Part shown: in pieces, positions 6,072-21,800 of the stretch
How the letters are laid out: the number at the start of each line of letters is the position of its first letter
How positions within the stretch are numbered: the first letter of the stretch is position 1
Source: Candidatus Tidjanibacter gallistercoris
GTDB taxonomy: Bacteria > Bacteroidota > Bacteroidia > Bacteroidales > Rikenellaceae
Assembly (NCBI GenBank): GCA_019114205.1
Contig: DXFY01000014.1
Span: forward strand, 1 to 64,000
Reading direction: 5' to 3'
DNA length: 64,000 nucleotides
Program-made: the position numbers and the translations under genes
Notes under the pieces: generated by a model
The model's input: only the letters and a program-made list of their open reading frames with translations
The model's database searches: none
What the model was told of the DNA's origin: nothing

Positions 6072-7019
6072 ATGGAACCGATAATAGAGGCCGTACCGAG
6101 GGAACTCATAGAGAAGGAGCTCACTGCGGAGCGCCTGCTACGCGCGACCAACAATGCGGGCAATTTCATCTATACGGTGAAGGCCGGCGACGCGCCTAAT
6201 GTCATGCGGGAAATCGGCCGCCTGCGCGAGTTGGCTTTCCGCCAGGCGGGGGGCGGTACGGGGTACGGTGCGGACATAGACGAGCAGGACCTCGCGCCGG
6301 ACGGCTATACGCAGTTGTTCGTATGGGACCCCGTGGCACGCGAAATTCTGGGAGGTTACCGGTACATCATCTCCGATTCCGAGTATCCCCGGCACCTTTC
6401 CACGGAACATTATTTCCGTTTCAGCGACCGGTTCCGCCGGGAGATACTGCCCCATACCATCGAGCTGGGGCGGTCGTTCGTGCAGCCGCGTTACCAGCGC
6501 ACGCGCGATGCGAAGAGTCTGTACGCGCTCGACAATTTGTGGGACGGGCTCGGAGCGCTCATCGTCGAGAATCCCGAAAAGCAGTATTTCTTCGGCAAGG
6601 TGACCATGTACGGACATTACGACAGGGAGGCGCGCAACATCCTCATGTATTTTCTGCACAAGTATTTCCCCGACCGCGACGGGTTGCTCGAACCGCTGTA
6701 TCCCGTGGACATGGAGATAGACGTACCGGCCATGGAGCGCATCTTCACCGGCGGCAACTATGCGGACGATTACCGGACGCTCGTCAATGAGCTGCGCAAG
6801 CGGGACGAATTCATTCCGCCCATGATAAACTCCTATATGAGCCTTTCGCCTTCGATGAAGGTATTCAGTACGGTACACAATCCCGACTTCGGGGAAGTGG
6901 AGGAGACCGGAATCCTCATTCGGATAAAGGACATCTATCCCGAAAAGGTCGAACGCCATACGCGTGGCCTGTTGCAGAAACTCAAGGACAGAATACGTTC
7001 CGTTTCGGGCGGCGAATAA
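6072..7019 (+). CDS. glsB: Hemolysin-like GNAT N-acyltransferase, probable glycine-lipid synthase subunit
   Basis: A 315-residue protein of the OlsB/hemolysin-like acyltransferase type. The fold core is visible: a first motif RELAFRQAGGGTGYGADIDEQDL (about 52-74), then FVWDPVAREILGGYRYI, and the acceptor region ELGRSFVQPRYQ (131-142), the family signature. The C-terminal half (YFPDRDGLLEPL through PPMINSYMSLSPSMKVF) matches long OlsB-like proteins. The predicted reaction transfers a 3-hydroxyacyl group from acyl-ACP to the amino group of glycine. It sits 91 bases after the partner acyltransferase on the same strand. Annotation as ornithine-lipid synthase would be the alternative; in Bacteroidales the glycine-lipid role is known for this pair. 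Confidence 0.83.
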   Translation: MEPIIEAVPRELIEKELTAERLLRATNNAGNFIYTVKAGDAPNVMREIGRLRELAFRQAGGGTGYGADIDEQDLAPDGYTQLFVWDPVAREILGGYRYIISDSEYPRHLSTEHYFRFSDRFRREILPHTIELGRSFVQPRYQRTRDAKSLYALDNLWDGLGALIVENPEKQYFFGKVTMYGHYDREARNILMYFLHKYFPDRDGLLEPLYPVDMEIDVPAMERIFTGGNYADDYRTLVNELRKRDEFIPPMINSYMSLSPSMKVFSTVHNPDFGEVEETGILIRIKDIYPEKVERHTRGLLQKLKDRIRSVSGGE

Positions 7020-7809
7020 GGGCACCGGTTTCGGTACCGGCAGAGGATGTACGATATGTTTCGGGCGGGGCGACATGCGGTCGTTCCGCCCGAAGCGTAC
7101 AGGTGAGCGTTTCCGCCCGGTCCGTACCGCCGACCGTGGGGCGGGGCGTTTTGTTCTTTCGGAACGGTAGTCGCTTTTTCGGCAGACATTAAGAGTAATG
7201 CCGGGATTCTTTTCATCACGTGGCTTCGGCATATTTTCTAGAACGGATGGTGAGGCGGAATGTTGGGTAAGGCGATTGGTTTGCGAAACGAAGCGTATCT
7301 TGAAAATGAGCAGGGTGCGTTATTTGAAGCGGGGGCTTTTTGGATGCAGATGTCAGGTCGTGTGCGGGCGGGTTGCGGGGGGATGCCGTTCATGTTTCCC
7401 GGAACTACGGTCGAACGGGTGTCGTGTGTCAGGCGACGGTCGACGGTCTGTGCGTATAACGGGCCTGTATCGGGGCATGGAGTTCCCTTGCGGCGGATGG
7501 TGTAGGGTGCGGTGCGAAGAGCATGACGGGGAGGAGGTTGTGAAGGAGGCGGAGCTGTCGGGGGGCAGGCACTCCGAGGCGACAAGGGTTTCTGCACGGA
7601 GGTGCTTTCGGCTGGTTTTCGATACATGTGATTCGCACGGCTTTTTCTAATGCAGGGTATTCGCCGTGCGATGAGGCGCGTCTGCTTGGATACGCCAAGC
7701 GGCGAATAGGGCGCAGCACCGCCTGCGGAGAACGATTATCGCTGCCATGGCGGTGCTGTGCCTTGTTGTCCGGAGCTGAAAGACAGCCGGATGGAGGTAC
7801 GTTCGCAGA
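7020..7809. other. Geneless junction between glsB and the accessory island
   Basis: About 790 bases without a credible gene. Open frames exist on both strands (for example 7198-7650 plus and 7429-7719 minus), but their products are rich in Arg, Cys and Pro with no family resemblance. No clear terminator with a T tract was found for either flanking gene. The plus strand is markedly G/T-rich from about 7250 to 7640. Confidence 0.5.
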
Positions 7810-9723
7810 TTACTCGGCCATGCCTGTTGCCATCCAGTAAAAATGACATTCTTCGAATCCGACACTGCCTGTTGATGACAATTTGTTCGTCATTACCGTC
7901 ATTTGGCTGGCGCTATAAGACCTGATGACAAGCGACCATATCGCAGGATTCGCATCGCCCGTAAAAGGTGTCAAAGAGATACTGAACGGCGTAATGACGA
8001 AAGGTTTCGGGAACGTTATGGTCACAGGAGATGTCTGGTCTCCAGTCATGTATGCAAACTTACCCCACTGAATCATCAGTCCGGAAGGAAACTTTACATA
8101 TCCGTTCGTGCTGGTATTCAGGGATTCGGAACCTGCCAGCCATTCTCGCGCCGTACCGATTGTATAGATACGGCTGTATGTTTGCGGGGAGTGTGTGCTC
8201 GAAGCGCCCCCCAGCGCTTCGAGGCGGTAATATCCGCTGCGGAGGCGGGTAATGCGCCCTGCCCATATTCTGGCGGCTGTCGAATACGTTGCGTCGGGCT
8301 GGCCGACTGCATCGTGACTTGTAAAGCGGACGAATTCACCGTCTGCGAGGTTTTTCGTCTCGGTGCATGTCGAGGGGTTGAAAGTATCGAAATCCGTTAT
8401 CGTTATGGTCGGAATGGCGTCTTCTTTCCCGGCGGCGAGGTCGTCGGCATATTTTTTCGCATCATCGAGCGTGGTGGCCGCCACCCGGTCGGCATAGTCC
8501 GTCGCGGCATCGAGGGCGGTGTCGCCCACTTCGTCCACGTAAGTGCGCAGGGCGGCATCGTCGCGGGCGGCGGCTTCGGCGGCCTCGGTCAGCAGCAGCT
8601 GTTCCCGGAGCGCCGTATAATGGTTCGCACAGGCGATAAGTGCATCCCGGTCGTCGGCTGTCGTGGCGGGGAAGCCGTCCGTGGCATAGGACAGTTCCGC
8701 ACCGGCCGACTGCCCCTCCGCCGGCACATAGGGCACGTCGTTCCCCTGACCGGAGGTGTCCCGCCACAGGGTGGACGTGAGGCCGGCGGGGGTGAGGTCG
8801 AGCACGGCGCCGACCGAGACGATGCACAGCGTGCGAATCTCCAGCCACGCATCCGCGTCGTTTCCGACCTGCGTTATGGCTGTGTACTTTCCGGCAGGAG
8901 TTACATAGCTCACCGTCACGGCATCGTCCGTATTGGCCGGGAAGTCTTCATAGGTTTCTGAACCACTACGAGCCTGTATGAGCACGTTGCTTCTGTATTC
9001 AAACTCAATCAGCTGATAGCAGGCACGTTCGTCATCGTTGCTGTTGCGGAAGCTGTTGCTCAAAGAGAGAGCTTCAGCCGTTCCCCGCTCGAATCGGGCA
9101 TACGCGTCGGAAAAGCCGTTTGCGGTGGACAGGTTTGCCGAGGTTATGATTTCGCTGTAATTCCGGCCCCACGTTCCGGAGGCTTCCAGCCAATTGCCGG
9201 TCGGCCACTTCGAGGTCGGTACGTTCCGCCATACGTCCGGTACATGCCAGAGCTCCGGGTGGCAGCCGTTGTACAACAGGGCGATTTGCTCCTCGTCCAT
9301 CGCGAAGTCGAAACGGCGGGCGGCAACGAAACGGGATGCGGCTGTATTTTCCGAACCGCCCAGAATGAAGCGCTGCGGGTTGTGAATATAAGGGAACTGT
9401 GGAGCATCATTCACGACGGGGGTACCGTTAACCGAGGTGATGATTTTGTCGTCGCCGAAATATGAGAAGACCACAAGACAGAGCGTACCGGCGGGCACCG
9501 CCGCGCTCTGAAGCGTCAGTCCGCGGAACGTCAGGATAACATGGCCGTTATACTGAAGGTACGCCCCGTACCCGTGCGTGCCTTCCGGCCTTTCGATGTA
9601 GAGGGAGAGGGCCGATTCGGGAACCTGCTCCGGCGTGACAAAAAGCAGCACCGTCGTGTGCGGCCTGTCTTTGAAATCGAGTGTCAGCGCGGAATCGGAA
9701 GTGTTGAACAGACCCTTCCCCAT
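7810..9723 (-). CDS. Phage tail-fibre-like protein (LamG-like plus gp53-like C-terminal domain)
   Basis: A 637-residue protein with start at 9723 (MGKGLFNTSDS); the upstream extension to 9816 is Arg/Pro-rich and unlikely. The N-terminal ~200 residues look like a LamG/concanavalin-A-type sandwich, with strands such as TLCLVVFSYF and RFDFAMDEEQIALLYNG. A central region around 400-450 is an Ala/Asp-rich coiled coil (RDDAALRTYVDEVGDTALDAATDYAD). The last ~90 residues (GYVKFPSGLMIQWGKF, VTITFPKPF, then FYWMATG at the end) match the C-terminal tip domain of tail-fibre proteins of the gp53-like type. It should bind a host-surface receptor. It lies downstream, on the same strand, of a lysis cassette. 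No baseplate, tail-tube or chaperone genes are visible. Confidence 0.75.
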   Translation of the reverse strand: MGKGLFNTSDSALTLDFKDRPHTTVLLFVTPEQVPESALSLYIERPEGTHGYGAYLQYNGHVILTFRGLTLQSAAVPAGTLCLVVFSYFGDDKIITSVNGTPVVNDAPQFPYIHNPQRFILGGSENTAASRFVAARRFDFAMDEEQIALLYNGCHPELWHVPDVWRNVPTSKWPTGNWLEASGTWGRNYSEIITSANLSTANGFSDAYARFERGTAEALSLSNSFRNSNDDERACYQLIEFEYRSNVLIQARSGSETYEDFPANTDDAVTVSYVTPAGKYTAITQVGNDADAWLEIRTLCIVSVGAVLDLTPAGLTSTLWRDTSGQGNDVPYVPAEGQSAGAELSYATDGFPATTADDRDALIACANHYTALREQLLLTEAAEAAARDDAALRTYVDEVGDTALDAATDYADRVAATTLDDAKKYADDLAAGKEDAIPTITITDFDTFNPSTCTETKNLADGEFVRFTSHDAVGQPDATYSTAARIWAGRITRLRSGYYRLEALGGASSTHSPQTYSRIYTIGTAREWLAGSESLNTSTNGYVKFPSGLMIQWGKFAYMTGDQTSPVTITFPKPFVITPFSISLTPFTGDANPAIWSLVIRSYSASQMTVMTNKLSSTGSVGFEECHFYWMATGMAE

Positions 9724-10256
9724 GACCGCACCGGTGGGCTTCCGGCTCCGCCGCGTGGGGAGGAAGCCGGCACTCGTTCGCAGGCGGGCCGGGGTGCGGC
9801 GGGCCGGAAGGGGCACCGCGTCCGGGAGTGGCCTGCGTTCGTCTCCTTTATATAGAGGTGACGGCCAGCATGCTGCCTTCCCTCTGAGCGGCCCTTGGCT
9901 GGTGGCCGGCCTCCCTTTGTGCCTTGCCGTGCGGCCCGCGTTCGCCTCCTTTATATAGAGGTGACGGCCAGCATGCTGCCTTCCCTCTGAGCGGCCCTTA
10001 GCTGGTGGCCGGCCTCCCTTTGTGCCTTGCCGTACTGCCTGTGTTTGGTCTCTTTATATAGAGGTGGCGGCCAGCCTGCTGCCTTCTCTATGTGCGGCCC
10101 TCGGCAGGTGGCCGGCTTTCCCCTTGTGCCTGTCTGTGCGGTCGGTATCCGATACCCGGTTTGCCCCTGTGCGGGGGGCGTTGTTGTGTGCCGGGAGCGG
10201 GTGGGGGAACAGTTTGTGTCCGGTTATCCTTGTGTTGGCCGTGCGTTTCGACCGGC
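9724..10256. other. Repeat-bearing gap between the spanin-like and tail-fibre genes
   Basis: This gap contains the 103-bp tandem repeats described separately. The remaining bases (9724-9835 and 10141-10256) show no gene. Confidence 0.6.
9836..10140. repeat. 103-bp tandem repeat, about three copies
   Basis: Copies begin near 9836, 9939 and 10042, with an exact 103-base offset at the shared TTTATATAGAGGTG core. The first two are nearly identical; the third has diverged. Each carries a perfect or near-perfect palindrome CAGCATGCTG (CAGCCTGCTG in copy three). On the minus strand each contains CTATATAAAGGAG, an AT-rich box next to a Shine-Dalgarno-like sequence. The array ends 113 bases before the tail-fibre start codon. 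Confidence 0.9.
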
Positions 10257-10769
10257 TTACCGTCGCACCAGGCGCACGAGTTTCCATCCGGCGAAGAGTG
10301 CCCCGCAGCCGATGGCCAGGCCGACCGTCCAGCAGCAGATGCGCTGCCATGCGGTCGGGCGGTTCACTTCGACGACCGCTGCGGTCCGGTTCCGGTCGTG
10401 CGTCGAGGTCACCTGCCGTTCCAGCCGGTCGCGGAGCGTCAGGTAGACGGCCATGGAATCCACGGTAGCGCTGGCGGTCAGCACGTTGTCGCTTAGGTCG
10501 AGGCAGGGCGGGGGCATGCGCGCTCCGGCTTCGTATTCGAGCAGGCGCGCCATACGGATGCGCCCTGCCGAGTCGCATTCGAGCAGCGCTTTCACTGCGG
10601 CGCTGTCGGGAGCGATGCGTACGACCGTGTCGCGCACGGTCTCGGTGCGGGTAAAGACCGTCACGCTGTCGGTGTAGTGCGTCTGTGTGGTTTCGGCTGC
10701 GCGCCGGGCGCAGCAGCATGTGAGCGAAAGGGCCGCCCAGCATGCGGCAGTCATCGCGGTTCGTTTCAT
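10257..10769 (-). CDS. Small lipoprotein with C-terminal membrane helix, spanin-like phage lysis protein
   Basis: A 170-residue protein. The start at 10769 overlaps the stop of the lysozyme gene as ATGA. The N-terminus (MKRTAMTAACWAALSLTCCCARR) is a signal with Cys residues at the lipobox position. The middle is hydrophilic (DSVTVFTRTETVRDTVV, then SAAVKALLECDSAGRIR and a helical LTLRDRLERQV segment). A hydrophobic helix WTVGLAIGCGALFAGWKLV lies close to the C-terminus. Proteins like this sit in lysis modules of Bacteroidales phages. The two membrane-linking ends suggest a fused or u-spanin-like role in outer-membrane disruption; that role is inferred from topology and position, not from a recognised family. 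Confidence 0.6.
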   Translation of the reverse strand: MKRTAMTAACWAALSLTCCCARRAAETTQTHYTDSVTVFTRTETVRDTVVRIAPDSAAVKALLECDSAGRIRMARLLEYEAGARMPPPCLDLSDNVLTASATVDSMAVYLTLRDRLERQVTSTHDRNRTAAVVEVNRPTAWQRICCWTVGLAIGCGALFAGWKLVRLVRR

Positions 10770-11176
10770 GGTCGGTGCGTTATGAAAAGGTTCCATCCGC
10801 TACGTACTTCCTCCATGTCGGCCGCCACGCCGTTCTCGACGCGGCTCATGGCTGCCACCAGGGGAATCATCGTATCGCCGTGCAGCGTGTCGAGCGGTTG
10901 GTCGGGAGCCGTACCGCTTTGCCGTGCGACGGCGGCGATGTATGCGGCGGTATCGTTCTCCGATGCGGGGGCGTACCGTGCGAGCAGCGCTTCGGGCGTG
11001 TTCAGGCCGTACCGGTGCTGGTACGTATGGAGTACCACGAACATCGCCCGGTAGCCCCACGCCATCGATGCGAAACTCTTGAAGGCCGTATCGTTGCTGG
11101 GCACCTCCCCCATGTACCGGGTCTTACTGCGGCGTATATTCCCCGGATTGCGGTTCCTCAACCCTCTGCTGCTCAT
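10766..11176 (-). CDS. P5-type phage lysozyme/lytic transglycosylase
   Basis: A 136-residue protein opening with RGLRNRNPGNIR (4-15), the signature of the structural-protein-P5-like muramidase family, followed by FKSFASMAWGYRAMFVVLHTYQHRYGLNTPEALLARYAP, in which the family's conserved aromatic and helix pattern is clear. It should cleave peptidoglycan during phage exit. There is no signal peptide, so export would depend on the adjacent holin-like protein. It overlaps the holin-like gene by 53 bases at its 5' end and the spanin-like gene by 4 bases at its 3' end, a compact lysis module. The length is normal for the family. Confidence 0.85.
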   Translation of the reverse strand: MSSRGLRNRNPGNIRRSKTRYMGEVPSNDTAFKSFASMAWGYRAMFVVLHTYQHRYGLNTPEALLARYAPASENDTAAYIAAVARQSGTAPDQPLDTLHGDTMIPLVAAMSRVENGVAADMEEVRSGWNLFITHRP

Positions 11177-11471
11177 CGGTCTCTCTTTGTGAATTATATT
11201 CGAACAGTTTATTTAAAACAGGACATTTCGCCGAGGGTGTCCGGCACCGGAAAGCCTCCTGAATGACCACGCTTTTCTGCTCCAGTTCGCGTTCTTTGGC
11301 TTCCAGCTTCGCTTCCATGTTTTCCACTTTGCGGGAAAGGCGGTTTATCTCGTCCTGCAGCATTCCCACGATTTTGGAGGTCTGGTCTATTCTGCGACCG
11401 TTGCGGCCGAGCAGCCAGGTCACCACCGCCAGCGCTACGGGTGCTATTACGTTGATTATCCAGGTTTCCAT
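11124..11471 (-). CDS. Holin-like protein with one membrane helix and a coiled coil
   Basis: A 115-residue protein. Residues 5-22 (IINVIAPVALAVVTWLLG) form a single membrane helix at the very N-terminus, followed by a charged boundary (RNGRRIDQ) and a heptad-rich coiled coil (QDEINRLSRKVENMEAKLEAKERELEQK, about 39-66). The C-terminal tail is hydrophilic and contains three Cys. The layout fits small phage holin or holin-associated proteins of Bacteroidetes. Its 3' end overlaps the lysozyme gene by 53 bases, which supports a shared lysis role. I do not recognise a named family, so holin is inferred from topology and position. Confidence 0.6.
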   Translation of the reverse strand: METWIINVIAPVALAVVTWLLGRNGRRIDQTSKIVGMLQDEINRLSRKVENMEAKLEAKERELEQKSVVIQEAFRCRTPSAKCPVLNKLFEYNSQRETDEQQRVEEPQSGEYTPQ

Positions 11472-11498
11472 GCTTTTCTTGCGTTCGTATCGTTCCGT

Positions 11499-11690
11499 CT
11501 GTCCGGGGCCCAGCCCGCTGTCCTTTGCGGGCTGGGGGGGGCTGTGTTCCGGGAGCCTTTCCCGCCGTCCCCTGCGGATGGGGGCTGTATGTCCGGGGCC
11601 CTTCCCGCCGTCCTTTGCGGATTGGAGGACTGTGTTCCGGGAGTCCTTTCCGCTGTCCTTTGCGGACAGGGGGACTGTGTCTGCCGGGGA
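11499..11690. repeat. Degenerate ~45-bp tandem repeat, four to five units
   Basis: Units share the order TCCGGG, then CCCGCCGTCC (or CCGCTGTCC), TTTGCGG and GGGG-CTGTG. The TCCGGG boxes occur near 11502, 11548, 11592 and 11636, so unit length varies between 44 and 46 bases. A worn fifth unit follows. The changing unit length means no reading frame is kept across the array. Confidence 0.75.
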
Positions 11691-12528
11691 CTCCTGTCCG
11701 TCGTGTCCGAGTCTTTTACGGCGGCCGGTGTGTGCCTGTCTTCTGAGGGCCGGTTTTCCCCTGTGGTTGTCCTTCCCTCATTGGTCTCCTCCTTCCTGAG
11801 GGGCGGAGCCTTCCGGCGTGCGGGAGCGGTGCCGTTGACTGTTCGGCGTCCGTCCGCCCGATGCGGGTTGCCGTTCGGGGATGCCGGTCGAAGGTTTGCT
11901 GTCCCGTCCTCCGATTTTTTTGCAAACATAATGGCTCCGGAAGGCCGTTGCAAATAAGTTCTCAAAGGTTGAACGGAAGCGTCGATAACTTGTACAGGGG
12001 TGTTCCTCAATGTATTATAATGGGTGTTTTTACGCCGGAAATGCTGCCGTCCGCTGCTGCCTCTGCCCGTTGCTTCATCGGTGCGGACGTACCGGCGGGA
12101 AGGAATGCGCCCCGGTCGGAGGGAAGGATTGGAAGCGGATGTCCGTCGGAGGATGCTCCATCGATAGGACGTTTCGGTATCTTGGCAAGGAGGGGAGGGT
12201 GCCGGCATTCCGACCTCGCGGGCGGTCGGAACATGATGCCGGCGGCTTGCAGGAAGGGTACGGATGCCGGATAGGGTACGGTGTTGGGGCGTATCCGGAA
12301 ATGGTCTTGTTGCAGCCGGCACCTTTCTTCTTACGGTCGTGCTTGGGTGTGTGAGGCTTGGCCGGGCGCGGGAGCAAGAGGGAGGTTGCCCGGTGCGGGC
12401 GTGCTGAATGCGGTGTGGTCGGGTTTGGTTGTGTTCTGTCTGTTGAGGCTTGGCCGGGCGCGGTACGGTTGGGTTTGGTCGGAGCCTGCCGCAATCGGAA
12501 ATGGAGACGGAAGCGGGGCTGGAAGAAT

Positions 12529-12553
12529 GAAAAAGGCGGGATGAATCCCGCCT
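12529..12553 (-). terminator. Rho-independent terminator, minus strand
   Basis: AGGCGGGA (12534-12541) pairs perfectly with TCCCGCCT (12546-12553) around a TGAA loop. On the minus strand it is followed directly by TTTTTC. It implies a minus-strand transcript arriving from the regulator-like genes at 13157-14259. Confidence 0.75.
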
Positions 12554-12689
12554 GTCTGCATTGCATGCTGTGTCTGCTCCTGTGCTTGTTTCTGTTCCGT
12601 TGGGGAGGGGAGGTTGTTTCGGTTTGCGGCCGTGTCGGATGTTCTGCATCTTTTGCGGCCCGCATCCCCGCTCCCGGCGGGCCGCACGG

Positions 12690-12980
12690 CTTGTTGAAGA
12701 CAAACCGGAACGGGTTCCGGGCAGTTTTCGTGTTTCCGTCGGGCTGTCGTCTTTTGCTTCGCATTCCCGTTCCGGCGGCCGGGTTTGGGGAGCTGTTGGA
12801 GACAAGGCGGAACCAGCTCCGGCGGTCGGGTTCGAGGGGTGGGTGAAGACAAGCCGGAACCGGCTCCGGTACGGTGTCGTGCTGCGTTTCCGTTATCCGA
12901 TTCTGGGCAGTTTTCGTGTTTCCGTCGGGTTGTCGTCTTTTGCTTCGCATTCCCGCTCCGGCGGTCGGGTTCGGGGGGGC
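12690..12980. repeat. Degenerate direct repeats, 186-base offset
   Basis: A segment of about 70 bases starting GGGCAGTTTTCGTGTTTCC at 12719 recurs at 12905 with few changes. A shorter module of the form GAAGACAA-CCGGAAC-GG-TCCGG occurs three times, near 12695, 12800 and 12845. No coding explanation was found. Confidence 0.8.
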
Positions 12981-13156
12981 GGGCTCTGCGGTGCGTATTC
13001 CGGGCCGACGGCTTTCGTTCCGTAACCGCTGGGCGGCTTCTCCGAACTCCGTATTCCGGGGTTCCGCTGCGTTCCCTGTACCGGCCCGGCGTTGCCGCGG
13101 GCCGTCCGTCCGGATGTCCGCGGACGGTGCCGGAGTGCTGCGGCGCATTCCGGAGG

Positions 13157-13387
13157 TCAGTCGTCCCGTTTGTCGGAAGGGGTGTCCTGAGGGTTATCCA
13201 TCTGTTTCAGCAGGGCCCGTGCCGGACAGGCAAGGTAGTTGTAGAACGTGGTGCGCGAAATCCGGTACCTTGGATAGATGACGTTCCGGTAGACCCATTC
13301 CTGCGTGACGCCCCTGTCCGTGTGTTCGAGGACGATGGTTTGTATGTCCGCTATCAGGGTCAGTTTATTGCGCTTGTTGTAGGCCAT
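13157..13387 (-). CDS. Small HTH-like protein of the phage-like island
   Basis: A 76-residue basic protein. It starts MAYNKRNKLTLIADIQ and then reads VTQEWVYRNVIYPRYRISRTTFYNYLACPARALLKQ. The segment RISRTTFYNYLAC has the look of a recognition helix, and the gene resembles small proteins found in Bacteroidales prophages and other mobile regions. It lies in the same orientation as the lysis and fibre genes and downstream of another regulator-like gene. The codons read like a real gene, unlike the Arg/Pro-rich frames around it. A role as a transcription regulator is an inference; I cannot name a family. Confidence 0.6.
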   Translation of the reverse strand: MAYNKRNKLTLIADIQTIVLEHTDRGVTQEWVYRNVIYPRYRISRTTFYNYLACPARALLKQMDNPQDTPSDKRDD

Positions 13388-13776
13388 ATCCGGATTGGTA
13401 AATGCTTTGGTCTGGGGAGTTCCTCCGCACGCGCCGTTCCGGGCAGCCGGTGCCGGCGGGGTTCTGCGGCTGGGGGCCCGGTTCGGCGCGTTGCTGCGGT
13501 GCGGGGGCTGTCGGGACAGGACAGGTTTGCGGCTGGGAAGTGCCGTGTGCCGTTCTGCGTGCGGCCGGGGGGCGGTCTTATGGCCCCTTGTTGTTTGGGG
13601 ACAGCGGTTGTGCCGTCTCTGTCTATTGGGTGCGCCCCCTGTTCGGTTGCGGGCATCCCCGTCTGTTTATCGACGGCACTGCCTCTTTCTATTGTTCGGC
13701 AGAGCGCCTTTCTCCCTGCTGGGGTGTGCCGCCTCTGTCTGTTGAGTGTACCTCGTTTTCGGGGTTTCCCGTTCCT
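13388..13776. other. Gap between the two small regulator-like genes
   Basis: About 390 bases with no credible gene, repeat or hairpin that I could identify. Confidence 0.5.
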
Positions 13777-14259
13777 TCACCGGCCGGGTGTCCCGTGTCC
13801 GTTGCAGTCGCTCCGCGTGCCTTCCGTGCATAGGGCGGAATCGGTGCGGCATCGAATGTCGGGCCCGTGCGCCAGGGTCTGTGCCTCGCAGAGTATCGCC
13901 GGCCAGTATTCCAGAGTCACGCCGCAGTACGTCTTTATCGGAGCACCGTCCTGTCGCAGTTGCGCGCTGTCGGTCGTACAGTCCAGCACGACGCTCACCC
14001 CGTTGCCGAAAGTTTGTACGATGCCCGTAAGCCGGCCGTCCTCGCGCAGGTACTCGGTCGCGCAGTCGGGCACGAATCCGGCCGGGACTGCCAGCCGGTA
14101 CATCTCCGTGCCGCCCGCCTCGCGTGCCGCCTCCCTGATGCGGTTGGCGAGCGGGCTGTCGGTTCGGTAACGCAGCGCCGACCATACCGTCACGGCACTG
14201 ACGCCGAACGCACCGACTAACCGACGCTTCTCCCTTGCGGGTAATTCTATGTATTTCAT
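13777..14259 (-). CDS. Regulator-like protein of the phage-like island
   Basis: A 160-residue protein. The first ~50 residues (MKYIELPAREKRRLVGAFGV, then SAVTVWSALRYRTDSPLANRIREAA) have the spacing of a helix-turn-helix, with the SAVTVWSALRYR segment as the likely recognition helix. A second part (VQTFGNGVSVVLDCTTDSAQLRQDG, then GVTLEYWPAIL) reads as a short beta domain; similar N-termini occur in Bacteroidales mobile elements. The last ~30 residues are Cys/Arg/Thr-rich and may lie beyond the conserved part. An AT-rich tract (14340-14400) upstream could hold its promoter. It is the first gene of the minus-strand island cassette. Confidence 0.6.
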   Translation of the reverse strand: MKYIELPAREKRRLVGAFGVSAVTVWSALRYRTDSPLANRIREAAREAGGTEMYRLAVPAGFVPDCATEYLREDGRLTGIVQTFGNGVSVVLDCTTDSAQLRQDGAPIKTYCGVTLEYWPAILCEAQTLAHGPDIRCRTDSALCTEGTRSDCNGHGTPGR

Positions 14260-14641
14260 GACCGTCGCTTTTGTACTTTTCGTTTGTTTTCCGTGTCTTC
14301 ACTCGCCACTTAATCGTTAAGGGCAGTACAAATATAGAGAAGACAGGCCCGTATGTCAAGTGTTTTGATTAAAATATTTAATGAAAATAAGCAATAATTT
14401 ATTCCAAAAAAAGACCATTCGGCCGTGGCAGGTTGTTGCGGGTCATTGGGTCGGCGGATTGAACCGGGCAAGGGAGCCGGTCGGCCGGTGCTGGCATTCC
14501 ATCGAAACGGATTCGGTCGAGGCTGAGCGCCGCCCGTTATTCGGCGGGAGCGTGCCAGCCACGGCAGTATGCTGCAAAACGCTGCTGTCCGGTTGGCGTT
14601 ATCCGAACCGAAGGGTTCAGCAGCCTGCGTACCGGCAGGGG

Positions 14642-15112
14642 GGCGGCGCATCCGGTTCCATGAATCCGTTGCTTCACCGCCGGGCTTTCCGTGCTGTTAA
14701 ACGAGAGAGCGGGATACCGCCCGTCCCTACTTGTGGTTCCGAGCCCCGTCGTTGCGCCGTGGGGAATATGATACGGTACTTCCGCCTTTCCCCGTGTTCG
14801 TGCATCCTTCCATCCCTGAGTACTGCTCAGTGTTTCGGCAATACCCTATATCCGACCGGGGGCGGCGCATCCGGTTCCATGAATTCGTTGCTTCACCGCC
14901 GGGCTTTCCGCACTGTTAATCGAGAGAGCGGGATACCGCCCGTCCCTACTTGTGGTTCCGAGCCCGCTTTTGTTTCCGCCCCCCCGCCATTGCGCCGCGG
15001 GAATATGACCGGTCACTTCCGTCTTTCCTGTGTTCGTGTATCCCTCCGTCCCTGAGTGCCGATGCGGTACGGTACCGCTCAGTGTCCCGGCGATGCCCTG
15101 TATCCGGCAGGA
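14642..15112. repeat. Two-copy direct repeat, 219-bp offset
   Basis: The block GGCGGCGCATCCGGTTCCAT at 14642 recurs at 14861. The first ~105 bases of the copies are almost identical, including GAGCGGGATACCGCCCGTC, which can fold into a small hairpin. The second halves are related but carry insertions. It is non-coding by composition. Confidence 0.85.
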
Positions 15113-15455
15113 AACAGGGCGCCTGCATCCGTTTTCCCGATGTACCTATATATTAATTGCCGTTCATCCGATTTCCTGTGCCTGCTGCGTATATCGATAT
15201 CCCTGCGTCCGTTCGCCTCGGTAGCGGGCAGCAGGCACGTGCGCAGGTTACCGGTACCCGCCGGATACGTCGGATATGCTGCCGTTCCGCCGTGCTCCGA
15301 AAGCCATCCCGTCGGCACCTTCCGCACATGCGCACTTGCCGAAACCGGTGTGCCGTTGTGTCCTTCGACAGGATGCCGCATTGGATGGAGTCCCACCGCC
15401 CGTGTACTGTGTCGTATGCCGCAGCGCCTCTTCCGTCTTGTGGCGATACCCCCAC

Positions 15456-15850
15456 CCGCAACCATCCCCTTTTTGGTCGCCTCCTCCTTTGTCCGGCCCA
15501 TCCGCAACCATCCCTTCCTTTGGTCTGTTGCCTCCTTTGTCCGGCCCATCCGCAACCATCCCTTCCTTTGGTCTGTTGCCTCCTTTGTCCGGCTTACCCG
15601 CAACCATCCCTTCCTTTGGTCTGTTGCCTCCTTTGTCCGGCTTACCCGCAACCATCCCTTCCTTTGGTCTGTTGCCTTCTTTGTTCGTCCACCCACGACC
15701 ATCCCTTCCTTTGGTCTGTTGCCTCCTTTGTCCGGCTTACCCGCAACCATCCCTTCCTTTGGTCGGCCTCCTTCTTTGTTCGTCCACCCGCAACCAACCT
15801 TTCCTTTGGTCGGTTGCCTCTTTTGTCTGGCCCATCCGCAACCGGTCTCC
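15456..15850. repeat. 48-bp minisatellite, eight copies plus a partial ninth
   Basis: Units start near 15456, 15502, 15550, 15598, 15646, 15693, 15741 and 15788, with a fragment at 15836. The core units are almost identical; the edges have diverged. In each unit GCAAC and GTTGC can pair. On the minus strand each core unit contains AAGGAAGGG directly followed by ATG, opening the 16-residue phrase MVAGKPDKGGNRPKEG. A second minus frame gives WLRVSRTKEATDQRKG. There are no unique spacers, so this is not a CRISPR array. Confidence 0.93.
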
Positions 15851-16842
15851 TTTCGGGGCCAGACCTTTCTGTTGCCCCGCTCCCTGCCGATGGCTTTTTC
15901 GCGTAGGGCCGGTGTTGCCCTGCAGTGTACCTACGCTTCGTCGCGGTCGGCAGGGGGCATTTCCTCCGGCGCACAGGATTTTTATGGTCGTTGGTGTGTA
16001 TTGGGTTGGTTATTAGTATGTTGTCTCGGAAATTGAAGATGCCGTCCCAGGCATTTTCCCCCTTCTGTCAGCCGTATTTCGGGGCGGAATGTCCGCAAGA
16101 CCGGCGCTTTCCGTCGGTTATGACAGGAGCAAAAACCGCATTCTGTCCGTCCATTTTCACCGTTTCGTCCGTCCATTGTGTCCGGGCAGTAGTCCGTCCA
16201 TTCCGATGTCTCTACGTACTTTGGTGACGACAACATGCTGTAAGTTAGTTGTTTGAACTCGATGCCGTTCCGGGAAAGGCTCCGACCGTATGCTGACGGA
16301 ACATGCCCGGCCTGCTGCTCCTTCTGTCCGCACGGGAAAGCCCGGTGCAAAAGCCTGCCCGTTCCGATTTTTCAGCTGGTTTTCGGCTTCGGATGCTGCG
16401 ATGTATGAAAGGGAGGAGTGTACGTTATTATGGCCTCGATGTAAGGTAGTTGCGAACGGAACCGGATGCTGCGGCAAAAAGACGGAGGGAACGTCCTTGC
16501 CTGTATTGCGACAGGCAGGATGTACATCGTTCGGCCTCGCCGCAGCGACCCATACATCCGGCCTTGCGCCGCATCGAATGCCGCCGGACATTATGCTGGC
16601 TGATACCGGAGTCATACATTTCGTTTCATGCCGTTCATGTCCGCTCGCATGCCTCGTGCACTATCATTCACATGGTTGCATCCACCGACGAATCATAATC
16701 CATCCTCTTCGTTTTCTGTATTATGAATAGCGCAGCAGGTATTCTTCGCATGGGATTTTTTCTTTGTCTGTCCGGGAATTTGTCTTTCCGTATCCCGAAG
16801 TTCGTGCCCGGTGCCGGATTATGATATGCGGCGATTTCCGAC

Positions 16843-16850
16843 TACATTTG
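16843..16850 (+). promoter_or_regulatory. -7 box (TACATTTG) of recQ
   Basis: It matches the Bacteroidetes TAnnTTTG element and ends only four bases before the recQ ATG at 16855. A good TTTG -33 box at the right distance is not seen. Confidence 0.4.
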
Positions 16851-16854
16851 CGGT

Positions 16855-18771
16855 ATGAACAGAAGCGCCATTACGGACGCGCATCTTGCGGATGCGTTGA
16901 AGCGGTACTGGGGATACGATGCGTTGCGGGGTACCCAACCCCGGACGATACGCTGCGTGCTGGACGGCCGCGACACGCTCGCCCTGATGCCGACCGGCGG
17001 TGGCAAGTCGCTGACCTACCAGTTGCCCGGCCTGCTGATGGACGGGCTGTGCGTGGTCGTGACGCCGCTCGTGGCCCTGATGAAAGACCAAGTGGATTCG
17101 CTCCGGCGGCGGGGCATATCGGCCGTTGCCATCCACTCCGGCATGAGCCCCCGCAACATCGACATCACTCTCGACAACTGCGTGTACGGCGACATCAAGT
17201 TCCTGTACGTATCGCCCGAACGGATAGCGGGCGAATTGTTCACGGTACGGCTCGCCCGGATGAACGTGAATCTGATTGCAGTGGACGAGGCGCACTGCAT
17301 CTCGCAGTGGGGATACGATTTCCGTCCCGCCTACCTGCGCATCGCCCGCATGCGCGAGCTGCTGCCGGATGCCCCGGTGCTCGCGCTGACGGCATCAGCT
17401 ACGGAACACGTGGCGCAGGACATCATGGACAAGCTGCGGTTCCGGGAACCGAATGTCGTGCGGAGCGATTATTCCCGTCCGAACCTTTCCTTTTCCGTCC
17501 GGCGTACGGACGACCGGAAGGGGCAGCTGCTGCGGATAACGGAGCGCGTACCCGGCAGCGGCATCGTCTATGTCCGGACGCGGGATGCCGCCGAGCTGCT
17601 CGCTGCCGAGTTGAAGGAGGCGGGGGTGAAGGCGGACTATTACCATGCGGGCCTGCCTTACGGCGAGCGGAATGCGCGGCAGAACGAGTGGACGGAGGGT
17701 ACCACGCGCGTGATGGTGGCGACCAATGCGTTCGGTATGGGTATCGACAAGCCCGATGTCCGTTTCGTGGTGCATTACGGGCTTTGCGCTTCGCTGGAGG
17801 AGTATTATCAGGAAGCTGGCCGGGCGGGGAGGGACGGCCGCCGGTCGTATGCCGTACTGCTGGTCGCTTCGGACGACCGGGAACGGCTCGCACGCCGTTT
17901 CGCTTCGGAATTTCCGTCCATCGCACAGATAAAGGATATCTACGTCCGGTTGATGAATTATCTGGGCATCGCCATAGGCGAAGGGAAGTTCTATTCCGTG
18001 TCGTTCAACCTGTTCGACTTCTGCGCCCGCAACAGACTTTTTATAGGAACCGTGCAGAACGCACTGAAAATCCTCCAGCAGAACGGCTACCTCGTTTTTA
18101 CGGACGACGAGGAGAATCCCGCCCGGCTGATGTTTTGCGTCAGCCGCGATGACCTTTATTCGCTGCGCGTTCAGCGCGACGACCTGGACAACATCCTGCG
18201 GACCATCCTGCGTCTGTATACGGGGGTGTTCACCGGTCTGCGTCCGGTGGACGTGCAGGAGATGGCCATCTACACCGGCTATACCGAGGAACGCGTGATG
18301 GAACTCCTCAAGACGCTCTGGCGGCTGCATGTGATACGTTTCGTGCCGAAGAACCGCAGCCCGATGGTCTTTCTTTCCGACAACCGTCTGCCGGATGCCG
18401 ACATCTATATCGCCCCGCAGACATACGATGTGCGCAAGGAGATGGCTGCCGGGAGATTGGATGCCGTATTCGATTATGCCGAAAATACGGAACGTTGCCG
18501 GAGCGTCGTGCTGCAGGAGTATTTCGGACAGCAGGATGCCGTTCCGTGCGGCGTGTGCGATGTATGCCTGGCCCGGCGCAGGCGCGGCGGCGTGTCGGAG
18601 GATGTTCGGGACGCCATTCTGCGCTTCATTCCCGACGGAGGTATCGGTCTGAAGGAGCTGGCCGGTAAGTGCGCCGCACCGCAGGAGCGGGTGGCTGCCG
18701 CGGTGGATTCCCTGATGGTGGCGGGTAAAATTTCGGTGATGCCGAACGGATTACTCGTGATTAATCGGTAA
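16855..18771 (+). CDS. recQ: ATP-dependent DNA helicase RecQ
   Basis: A 638-residue superfamily-2 helicase that unwinds DNA 3' to 5' in recombination and fork repair. Helicase motifs are in order: MPTGGGKS (Walker A, 45-52), TPLVALMKDQVDSL, DEAHCISQWG (144-153, DEAH plus the RecQ aromatic loop), LTASAT, and motif VI QEAGRAGRDG. The zinc-binding domain is complete (ERCRSVVLQEYFG with CGVCDVC, about 546-568), followed by a winged-helix region. The C-terminal part after the zinc site is short, and I see no clear HRDC domain. It is followed after 45 bases by a DEDD exonuclease gene, so the two may be co-expressed. Confidence 0.96.
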   Translation: MNRSAITDAHLADALKRYWGYDALRGTQPRTIRCVLDGRDTLALMPTGGGKSLTYQLPGLLMDGLCVVVTPLVALMKDQVDSLRRRGISAVAIHSGMSPRNIDITLDNCVYGDIKFLYVSPERIAGELFTVRLARMNVNLIAVDEAHCISQWGYDFRPAYLRIARMRELLPDAPVLALTASATEHVAQDIMDKLRFREPNVVRSDYSRPNLSFSVRRTDDRKGQLLRITERVPGSGIVYVRTRDAAELLAAELKEAGVKADYYHAGLPYGERNARQNEWTEGTTRVMVATNAFGMGIDKPDVRFVVHYGLCASLEEYYQEAGRAGRDGRRSYAVLLVASDDRERLARRFASEFPSIAQIKDIYVRLMNYLGIAIGEGKFYSVSFNLFDFCARNRLFIGTVQNALKILQQNGYLVFTDDEENPARLMFCVSRDDLYSLRVQRDDLDNILRTILRLYTGVFTGLRPVDVQEMAIYTGYTEERVMELLKTLWRLHVIRFVPKNRSPMVFLSDNRLPDADIYIAPQTYDVRKEMAAGRLDAVFDYAENTERCRSVVLQEYFGQQDAVPCGVCDVCLARRRRGGVSEDVRDAILRFIPDGGIGLKELAGKCAAPQERVAAAVDSLMVAGKISVMPNGLLVINR

Positions 18772-21286: not shown

Positions 21287-21371
21287 GGAAAGATGGCAGA
21301 GTGGTCGATTGCGGCGGTCTTGAAAACCGTTGAGCTGCAAGGCTCCGGGGGTTCGAATCCCTCTCTTTCCG
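21287..21371 (+). tRNA. tRNA-Ser (anticodon UGA)
   Basis: An 85-base cloverleaf. The acceptor stem GGAAAGA pairs with TCTTTCC (21364-21370) and the discriminator is G21371. The anticodon loop reads CTTGAAA, giving anticodon TGA. A long class-II variable arm (TGAGCTGCAAGGCTC region) is as expected for serine, and the T arm contains GGTTCGAATCC. CCA is not encoded. No integrated element with duplicated tRNA 3' sequence is evident. Confidence 0.96.
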
Positions 21372-21372
21372 C

Positions 21373-21485
21373 CGAAGATGATTCATGCCGGAAGGCATGG
21401 GTTCGAAACAGTACGGGCAACCGCAAGATTTCTTGCAGGTTGCCCGTACTGCTTCGAACCGTCTTGGCAGGACGCATCATCTTCG
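21373..21485. repeat. 113-base nested inverted repeat abutting tRNA-Ser
   Basis: An outer stem CGAAGATGAT (21373-21382) pairs with ATCATCTTCG (21476-21485). An inner stem of about 28 bp pairs 21400-21428 with 21431-21460 (GTTCGAA-CAGTACGGGCAACC and its complement, plus GCAAGA/TCTTGC). The outer arm begins two bases after the tRNA. There is no T tract, so it is not a standard terminator. Confidence 0.85.
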
Positions 21486-21800
21486 TGTAGCCTTCCCTCT
21501 TTCGGGAAAGACGAGCGAAGCGAAGTCAATCCCGAAGGTTGCGTGTGTAGTCGATTACCGGGGTGTGTCCGGAAATGCTGTAACCGTTGCAGGCAATCTT
21601 GCAGGTTGCCCGTACTGCTTCGAACTGTCCTGGCAGGACGCATCATCTTCGTGCAGCCTTCCCTCTTTCGGGAAAGACGAGCGAAGCGAAGTCAATCCCG
21701 AAGGTTGTGTGTGTATTCGATTACCGGGGTGTGTCCGGAAATGCTGTAACTGTTACAGGCAATCTTGCAGGTTGCCCGTACTGCATTCAACCGTCCGCGA
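21432..21800. repeat. 166-bp tandem repeat, two full copies and a partial third
   Basis: CTTGCAGGTTGCCCGTACTG occurs at 21432, 21598 and 21764 with an exact 166-base offset. The two full copies are roughly 95% identical by eye. Each contains GGGAAAGACGAGCGAAGCG followed by CAATCCC, which can form a further hairpin. The first 29 bases of the unit are the right arm of the large inverted repeat. Confidence 0.92.

Follow-up and report, generated by a model that had tools for sequence, protein, structure and literature searches.

Probable origin of the glsB-recQ island of Candidatus Tidjanibacter gallistercoris from a Mu-like prophage that kept its lysis genes

Introduction

How does a complete set of phage lysis genes come to lie between two chromosomal genes with so little else of a phage around it? 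The question is raised by the first 64,000 nucleotides of contig DXFY01000014.1 (assembly GCA_019114205.1) of Candidatus Tidjanibacter gallistercoris, a member of the Rikenellaceae; this whole stretch is referred to here as the window. In it, glsB ends at position 7019 and recQ starts at 16855, and the interval of 9,835 bp between them, the island, carries a tail-fibre fragment, a lysis trio and two small regulator genes. A first-pass annotation, made from the sequence alone, considered a decayed prophage, a domesticated lysis or adhesion cassette, and a satellite that borrows particles. The first of these is borne out here and can be made more specific. With a probability of roughly 80%, the island is an internally deleted remnant of a Mu-like transposable prophage between glsB and recQ. 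It is new as a locus and known as a kind, namely the internally deleted Mu-like prophage.

The island as an insertion

In five genomes of the same genus, glsB and recQ are direct neighbours, spaced by 102, 200, 240, 733 and 884 bp; the nearest relative (GlsB 90% and RecQ 85% identical) has 200 bp between them. Because the spacing is this short in all five, the island is an insertion relative to the same-genus relatives, in each of which the site is empty. Since the glsB hairpin and the sequence upstream of recQ (from about 16808) are kept, the inserted part extends over roughly 7.1–16.8 kb. Its limits are as follows.

7056..7099, plus strand: terminator hairpin of glsB, host sequence, left limit of the insertion (fold z -7.4)
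16808..16854, plus strand: sequence upstream of recQ in common with the relative G002, right limit of the insertion (by comparison with G002)

The island is present as a single copy in its own genome (2.03 Mb, 77 contigs).

Gene content and gene order

Six open reading frames (ORFs) between glsB and recQ are judged credible, all on the minus strand. The same six had been named at the outset, and both their coordinates and their codon usage confirm them. The terms "Ner-position" and "Mor-position" are positional labels only, because neither regulator gave a useful match when its fold was searched in the PDB.

7810..9732, minus strand: tail-fibre fragment, 640 aa, N-terminal ~97 residues gone, PF21882 C-terminus
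10257..10769, minus strand: spanin-like protein, 170 aa, lipoprotein-like N-terminus and C-terminal membrane segment (topology read from sequence)
10766..11176, minus strand: endolysin (P5-like lysozyme), 136 aa, phrog_873 endolysin match (2e-41)
11124..11471, minus strand: holin-like protein, 115 aa, N-terminal membrane segment, coiled coil, CPVL motif
13157..13387, minus strand: Mor-position helix-turn-helix (HTH) protein, 76 aa, up to 60% identity to phage early-region genes
13777..14259, minus strand: Ner-position HTH protein, 160 aa, residues ~130-160 without homology

Together they account for about 3.9 of the 9.8 kb (~40%). By a codon-usage score trained on 17 long ORFs from the window, they rank top among 80 island ORFs. 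The only other positive scores belong to frames antisense to or inside the six, and island ORFs elsewhere score below -0.09.

The order of these genes agrees throughout with that of intact Mu-like phages of Rikenellaceae and gut viromes. In the phages, the order is Ner-position gene, MuA/MuB, Mor-position gene, terminase, portal and capsid genes, lysis trio, sheath-to-baseplate genes and tail fibre. Relative to this order, the island is missing the repressor, MuA/MuB, the terminase-portal-capsid block and the sheath-to-baseplate block. The same gene families in the same order are found in Mu-like phages of Bacteroidales, including hankyphage (PMC12135933) and the transposable phages of Porphyromonas gingivalis (PMC10367356), as well as in MT836414.1 and the IMG/VR contigs L085, L087, L092 and L256. 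The intact Mu-like relatives examined possess a CI-like repressor, MuA, MuB and the Mu portal; in the viral contigs, the transposase is recognised by a phrog_310 match, the portal by Portal_Mu, and MuB by AAA and, weakly, MuB-C domains. The island, in contrast to the Bacteroidales phages, is without repressor, MuA, MuB and the packaging, head and tail genes except for the fibre fragment, and no ends could be made out in it. Judged by these gene relationships, the source of the island is a Mu-like transposable phage. Larger intact prophages of which the island would be a fragment, the refuting case named in the first-pass annotation, were found in related species and viromes, not in strains of the same species.

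The absence of structural, packaging and integration genes was likewise confirmed. Searches of the island by tblastx and by protein comparison detected no structural, packaging or transposition gene, and it holds no integrase, primase, transposase, head or tail-tube gene. The whole host genome gave no matches to MuA or terminase; such an empty search is weak evidence, and the query used for MuA does recognise other family members. A search of the genome for the Mu portal family found no match anywhere, the control included, and hence says nothing about the portal.

The lysis trio

The three lysis ORFs are intact. The lysozyme is 62% identical to that of MT836414.1; it deviates at none of 39 near-invariant columns among 98 sequences, and its branch length is ordinary. 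The spanin-like protein shows 37% identity to its counterpart in a Rikenella prophage (G246:C57) and 42% over 52 aa to L092. The holin-like protein is 64% identical to that of MT836414.1 and 60–69% identical to those of Rikenella, with a weak match only in Pfam and PHROGs. A useful comparison is offered by phage Mu, whose lysis genes include the releasin gp25 (DUF2730), a protein with one membrane segment encoded together with endolysin and spanin (PMC9239132). The gp25 and holin-like proteins are alike in their single N-terminal membrane segment and long cytoplasmic part, yet the latter has no match to the DUF2730 Pfam family at E up to 10, and the island lysozyme, as a further difference, is without an N-terminal signal anchor. 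The holin-like protein is therefore described as a putative lysis-associated membrane protein of uncertain type.

The order holin-like protein, lysozyme, spanin between capsid and tail genes recurs in MT836414.1, G246:C57, L256, L258 and L262, the spanin being assigned by position in some of them. In the island, the start of the spanin-like gene overlaps the stop of the lysozyme gene (ATGA), and the holin-like and lysozyme genes overlap as they do in MT836414. These overlaps are inherited from the phage and are thus no evidence against decay, so that the argument once drawn from the intact overlapping frames does not hold. Nucleotide homology to MT836414.1 begins precisely at the holin-like start codon; in MT836414.1 the end of the capsid gene lies 3 bp before that codon. 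A complete lysis trio in so small a Mu-like remnant is mildly unusual, while relics as such are common.

Holin-like genes also occur alone in Rikenella. All eight genomes (G242–G249; L122–L133) hold a holin-like gene with no lysozyme detected beside it, and one of the eight additionally holds a complete lysis cassette in a prophage. Several of the stand-alone genes lie between chromosomal genes at non-syntenic sites, such as beside mutS (G243) and mutL (G244). Their pairwise dN/dS of 0.03–0.17 is a record of phage and Rikenella evolution and says nothing of the period after integration in the island. Stand-alone genes of the Mor-position family (L123, L124, L132) are 92–95% identical to one another. 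In G243, G244 and G248 they are found 2.6–8 kb away from the stand-alone holin-like genes, and in at least two of these genomes chromosomal genes lie in between.

Regulators and tail fibre

The Ner-position protein matches phrog_16858 (4e-16) and is 42–45% identical to prophage genes of the host's own family (G198:C14 and G137:C24), where the relative is located between a CI-type repressor and the MuA transposase. A weaker relative in viral contig L092 is likewise placed between CI and MuA. Protein and relatives run together to about residue 129; the relatives stop at about 135 aa, whereas in the island their last few residues are replaced by a foreign tail of 31 residues that is predicted to be disordered, the last 23 residues having pLDDT below 50. 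No relative of this protein was found in the phages collection, and viral contigs searched singly with the Ner-position, holin-like and fibre proteins gave no relatives at that sensitivity.

The Mor-position protein is modelled as four helices (pLDDT 85). Its relatives (up to 60% identity) occur in L085–L090, L092, G237, G087 and others. In L085, L087, L092 and G087, the gene closes the early region and directly precedes the virion genes.

The fibre fragment ends in a Gp53-like domain (PF21882, 7e-13) and is 48.6% identical over 354 residues to the fibre of MT835674.1. Homology starts at the motif TGAVMGKG; the MT835674.1 protein has about 97 more residues upstream, and the corresponding DNA of the window is unrelated and repeat-rich. 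The fibre ORF has the highest codon-usage score in the island. The fibre first annotated as a receptor-binding gene is thus truncated at its 5' end and not intact. The joints at the holin-like start, in the fibre and at the 3' end of the Ner-position gene show that deletions cut two genes and spared the lysis trio.

Non-coding DNA and candidate signals

About 60% of the island is non-coding, in agreement with the early estimate that more than half of it is repeat-rich non-coding DNA. Tandem arrays make up 10.0% of its bases, compared with 0.9% in the rest of the window and 0–1.4% in related phage loci, and they sit in the gaps between genes. The main non-coding features and the candidate signals, which are predicted from sequence matches, are given below.

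7100..7809, no strand: non-coding DNA from the host flank to the fibre fragment, no coding signal, tblastx phage homology not above noise
9830..10131, no strand: 103-bp tandem repeat, 2.9 copies, between truncated fibre and spanin (repeat scan)
11497..11680, no strand: 45-bp tandem repeat, 4 copies, within the lysis-gene leader (repeat scan)
11923..11954, minus strand: promoter-like site of Bacteroidetes type, TTTG-20-TATGTTTGC, 450 bp upstream of the lysis trio (pattern scan)
12534..12553, minus strand: clean putative intrinsic terminator downstream of the Mor-position gene (fold z -5.0)
14331..14359, minus strand: strong promoter-like site TTGACA-17-TATATT / Bacteroidetes TATATTTG element, before the Ner-position gene
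14639..15111, no strand: direct repeats spaced 219-252 bp, at the expected place of the phage repressor gene
15443..15843, no strand: 48-bp tandem repeat, 8.3 copies (repeat scan)

The TTTG-20-TATGTTTGC pattern has three matches in all in the 64-kb window, counting both strands. Folded as RNA, the 103-, 45- and 108-bp repeat units show no excess structure and the 48-bp unit a slight one. No Rfam family was found within the island, and the gap DNA gave no match to phages and plasmids outside the holin-lysozyme part. The minus strand of the gaps (7100–16800) is markedly poor in T, with 7–14% in most gaps versus 18% in the window overall, and resembles an exaggerated form of the strand bias of the surrounding genome.

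Formation of the remnant and competing explanations

According to the favoured explanation, a Mu-like prophage would have inserted between glsB and recQ in the host lineage. Internal deletions, in an order that can only be surmised, would then have removed the repressor, MuA/MuB, the terminase/portal/capsid block and the sheath-to-baseplate block, and expanding tandem repeats would have filled the joints. What remains is the Ner-position regulator behind a predicted early-type promoter, the Mor-position regulator followed by a putative terminator, the full lysis trio with its own promoter-like site, and a fibre fragment minus its N-terminal part. Such an element should no longer be able to move or to make particles. 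In normal growth the lysis genes are probably silent or weakly active, or else conditionally expressed, because with the phage repressor gone their expression should be lethal to the cell.

Several observations weigh against this account. Mu-type ends, a target-site duplication and terminal inverted repeats were not found above chance; one candidate pair of TG...CA ends with a 5-bp target duplication was seen, about the chance expectation. All six ORFs are open, although under neutrality they would stay so only to about 0.6–1.3% divergence. The copies of three gap duplications are 4.5% apart, about 2.3% for each lineage. If the duplications arose after gene loss, the neutral probability of six open ORFs is 0.06 to <0.001 over the assumptions made. 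Furthermore, incomplete prophages preferentially lose lysis genes and are enriched in tail fibres (PMC7744054); the fibre of the island agrees with this trend, but its lysis trio does not. The open ORFs hint at selection, youth or faster-evolving repeats. For the lysis trio alone, the same neutral assumptions give a probability of 0.03–0.40, which is not very unlikely. Moreover, the hint of selection is weakened by the fibre fragment, which is hardly selectable as a fibre and is open as well. For this reason, the simpler view is that the remnant is young and its repeats evolve fast.

Selection is the core of the alternative that survives best, in which the host keeps the trio, under regulation, to serve envelope turnover, vesicle release or programmed lysis, and the rest is scaffolding being lost. 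The completeness of the trio with both overlaps, the conserved lysozyme, the trio's own promoter-like site and the upstream terminator would all suit this idea, as would the persistence of lysis genes against the general trend of their loss (PMC7744054). A precedent exists in the cryptic prophage DLP12 of E. coli K-12, which like the island has a full lysis set in a defective prophage (PMC7918800); there, however, the genes are lambdoid and an effect on vesicle production has been shown. Intactness is equally expected of a young insertion, and the presumably useless fibre fragment is open too. The element is missing at the locus in all five relatives, so there is no sign of vertical maintenance. 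A host-kept module is therefore judged unlikely.

A helper-dependent derivative, that is, a natural mini-Mu or satellite with its own lysis functions and borrowed transposase and particles, is very unlikely. It gains from the viral-collection contig L259, where a Mu-like early region and the same lysis trio are combined with a near-absence of head and tail genes, but the transposase frame of that contig is broken by tandem repeats and its joints may be artefacts. The island itself is a single copy, its genome gave no match to a MuA or terminase that could serve as helper, no ends or target-site duplication were found, and the island has no integrase, primase or transposase of its own. Barely credible is a receptor-binding or adhesion cassette selected for its fibre protein: the 640-codon ORF is open and scores highest in the island for codon usage, and tail fibres are enriched in incomplete prophages (PMC7744054), but the N-terminal part of the closest relative is gone and the sequence has no recognisable signal peptide in its place. 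Overall, the domesticated lysis cassette and the satellite of the first-pass annotation have intact ORFs and promoter-like sites as their whole positive support.

On the favoured explanation, the island has a wider meaning. It is a concrete example of how such prophages shrink in Rikenellaceae, by losing whole blocks of genes as tandem repeats expand at the joints, and a testable case of a lysis trio outlasting the virion genes, contrary to the usual trend. Should expression of the trio and its conservation among strains be demonstrated, the DLP12 lysis module would have a counterpart in Bacteroidota.

Comparable remnants

Other Mu-like remnants resemble the island in keeping a subset of the genes with large blocks missing, and differ from it in which subset is kept. 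In an Alistipes genome (G196:C1:44730-48451; L165:1660-2100), only a CI repressor, two small ORFs, the Ner-position gene and a Dam methylase are left, flanked by chromosomal genes, and G249:C48 has kept the holin-like gene and tail genes. From such cases it seems that Mu-like prophages of Rikenellaceae commonly undergo block deletion. The whole lysis trio is found again in L259 only (IMGVR_UViG_3300006213_001079), a metagenomic contig of 10.5 kb that is the nearest parallel to the island; as a metagenome contig, it may owe its joints to assembly. It comprises a repressor, the Ner-position gene, an interrupted MuA, MuB, the Mor-position gene, the full lysis trio and a murA-like host gene, and no head or tail genes except one small virion-morphogenesis-type gene after the Mor-position gene. 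That L259 and the island represent a recurrent virion-less Mu-like class, with regulators and lysis trio maintained for the host or for a helper-dependent cycle, is quite improbable. The MuA frame of L259 is interrupted by a 52-bp tandem duplication (2787–2940).

Elsewhere in the window, positions 21287–21796 hold a tRNA-Ser(TGA) followed by a 166-bp tandem repeat of 2.2 copies.

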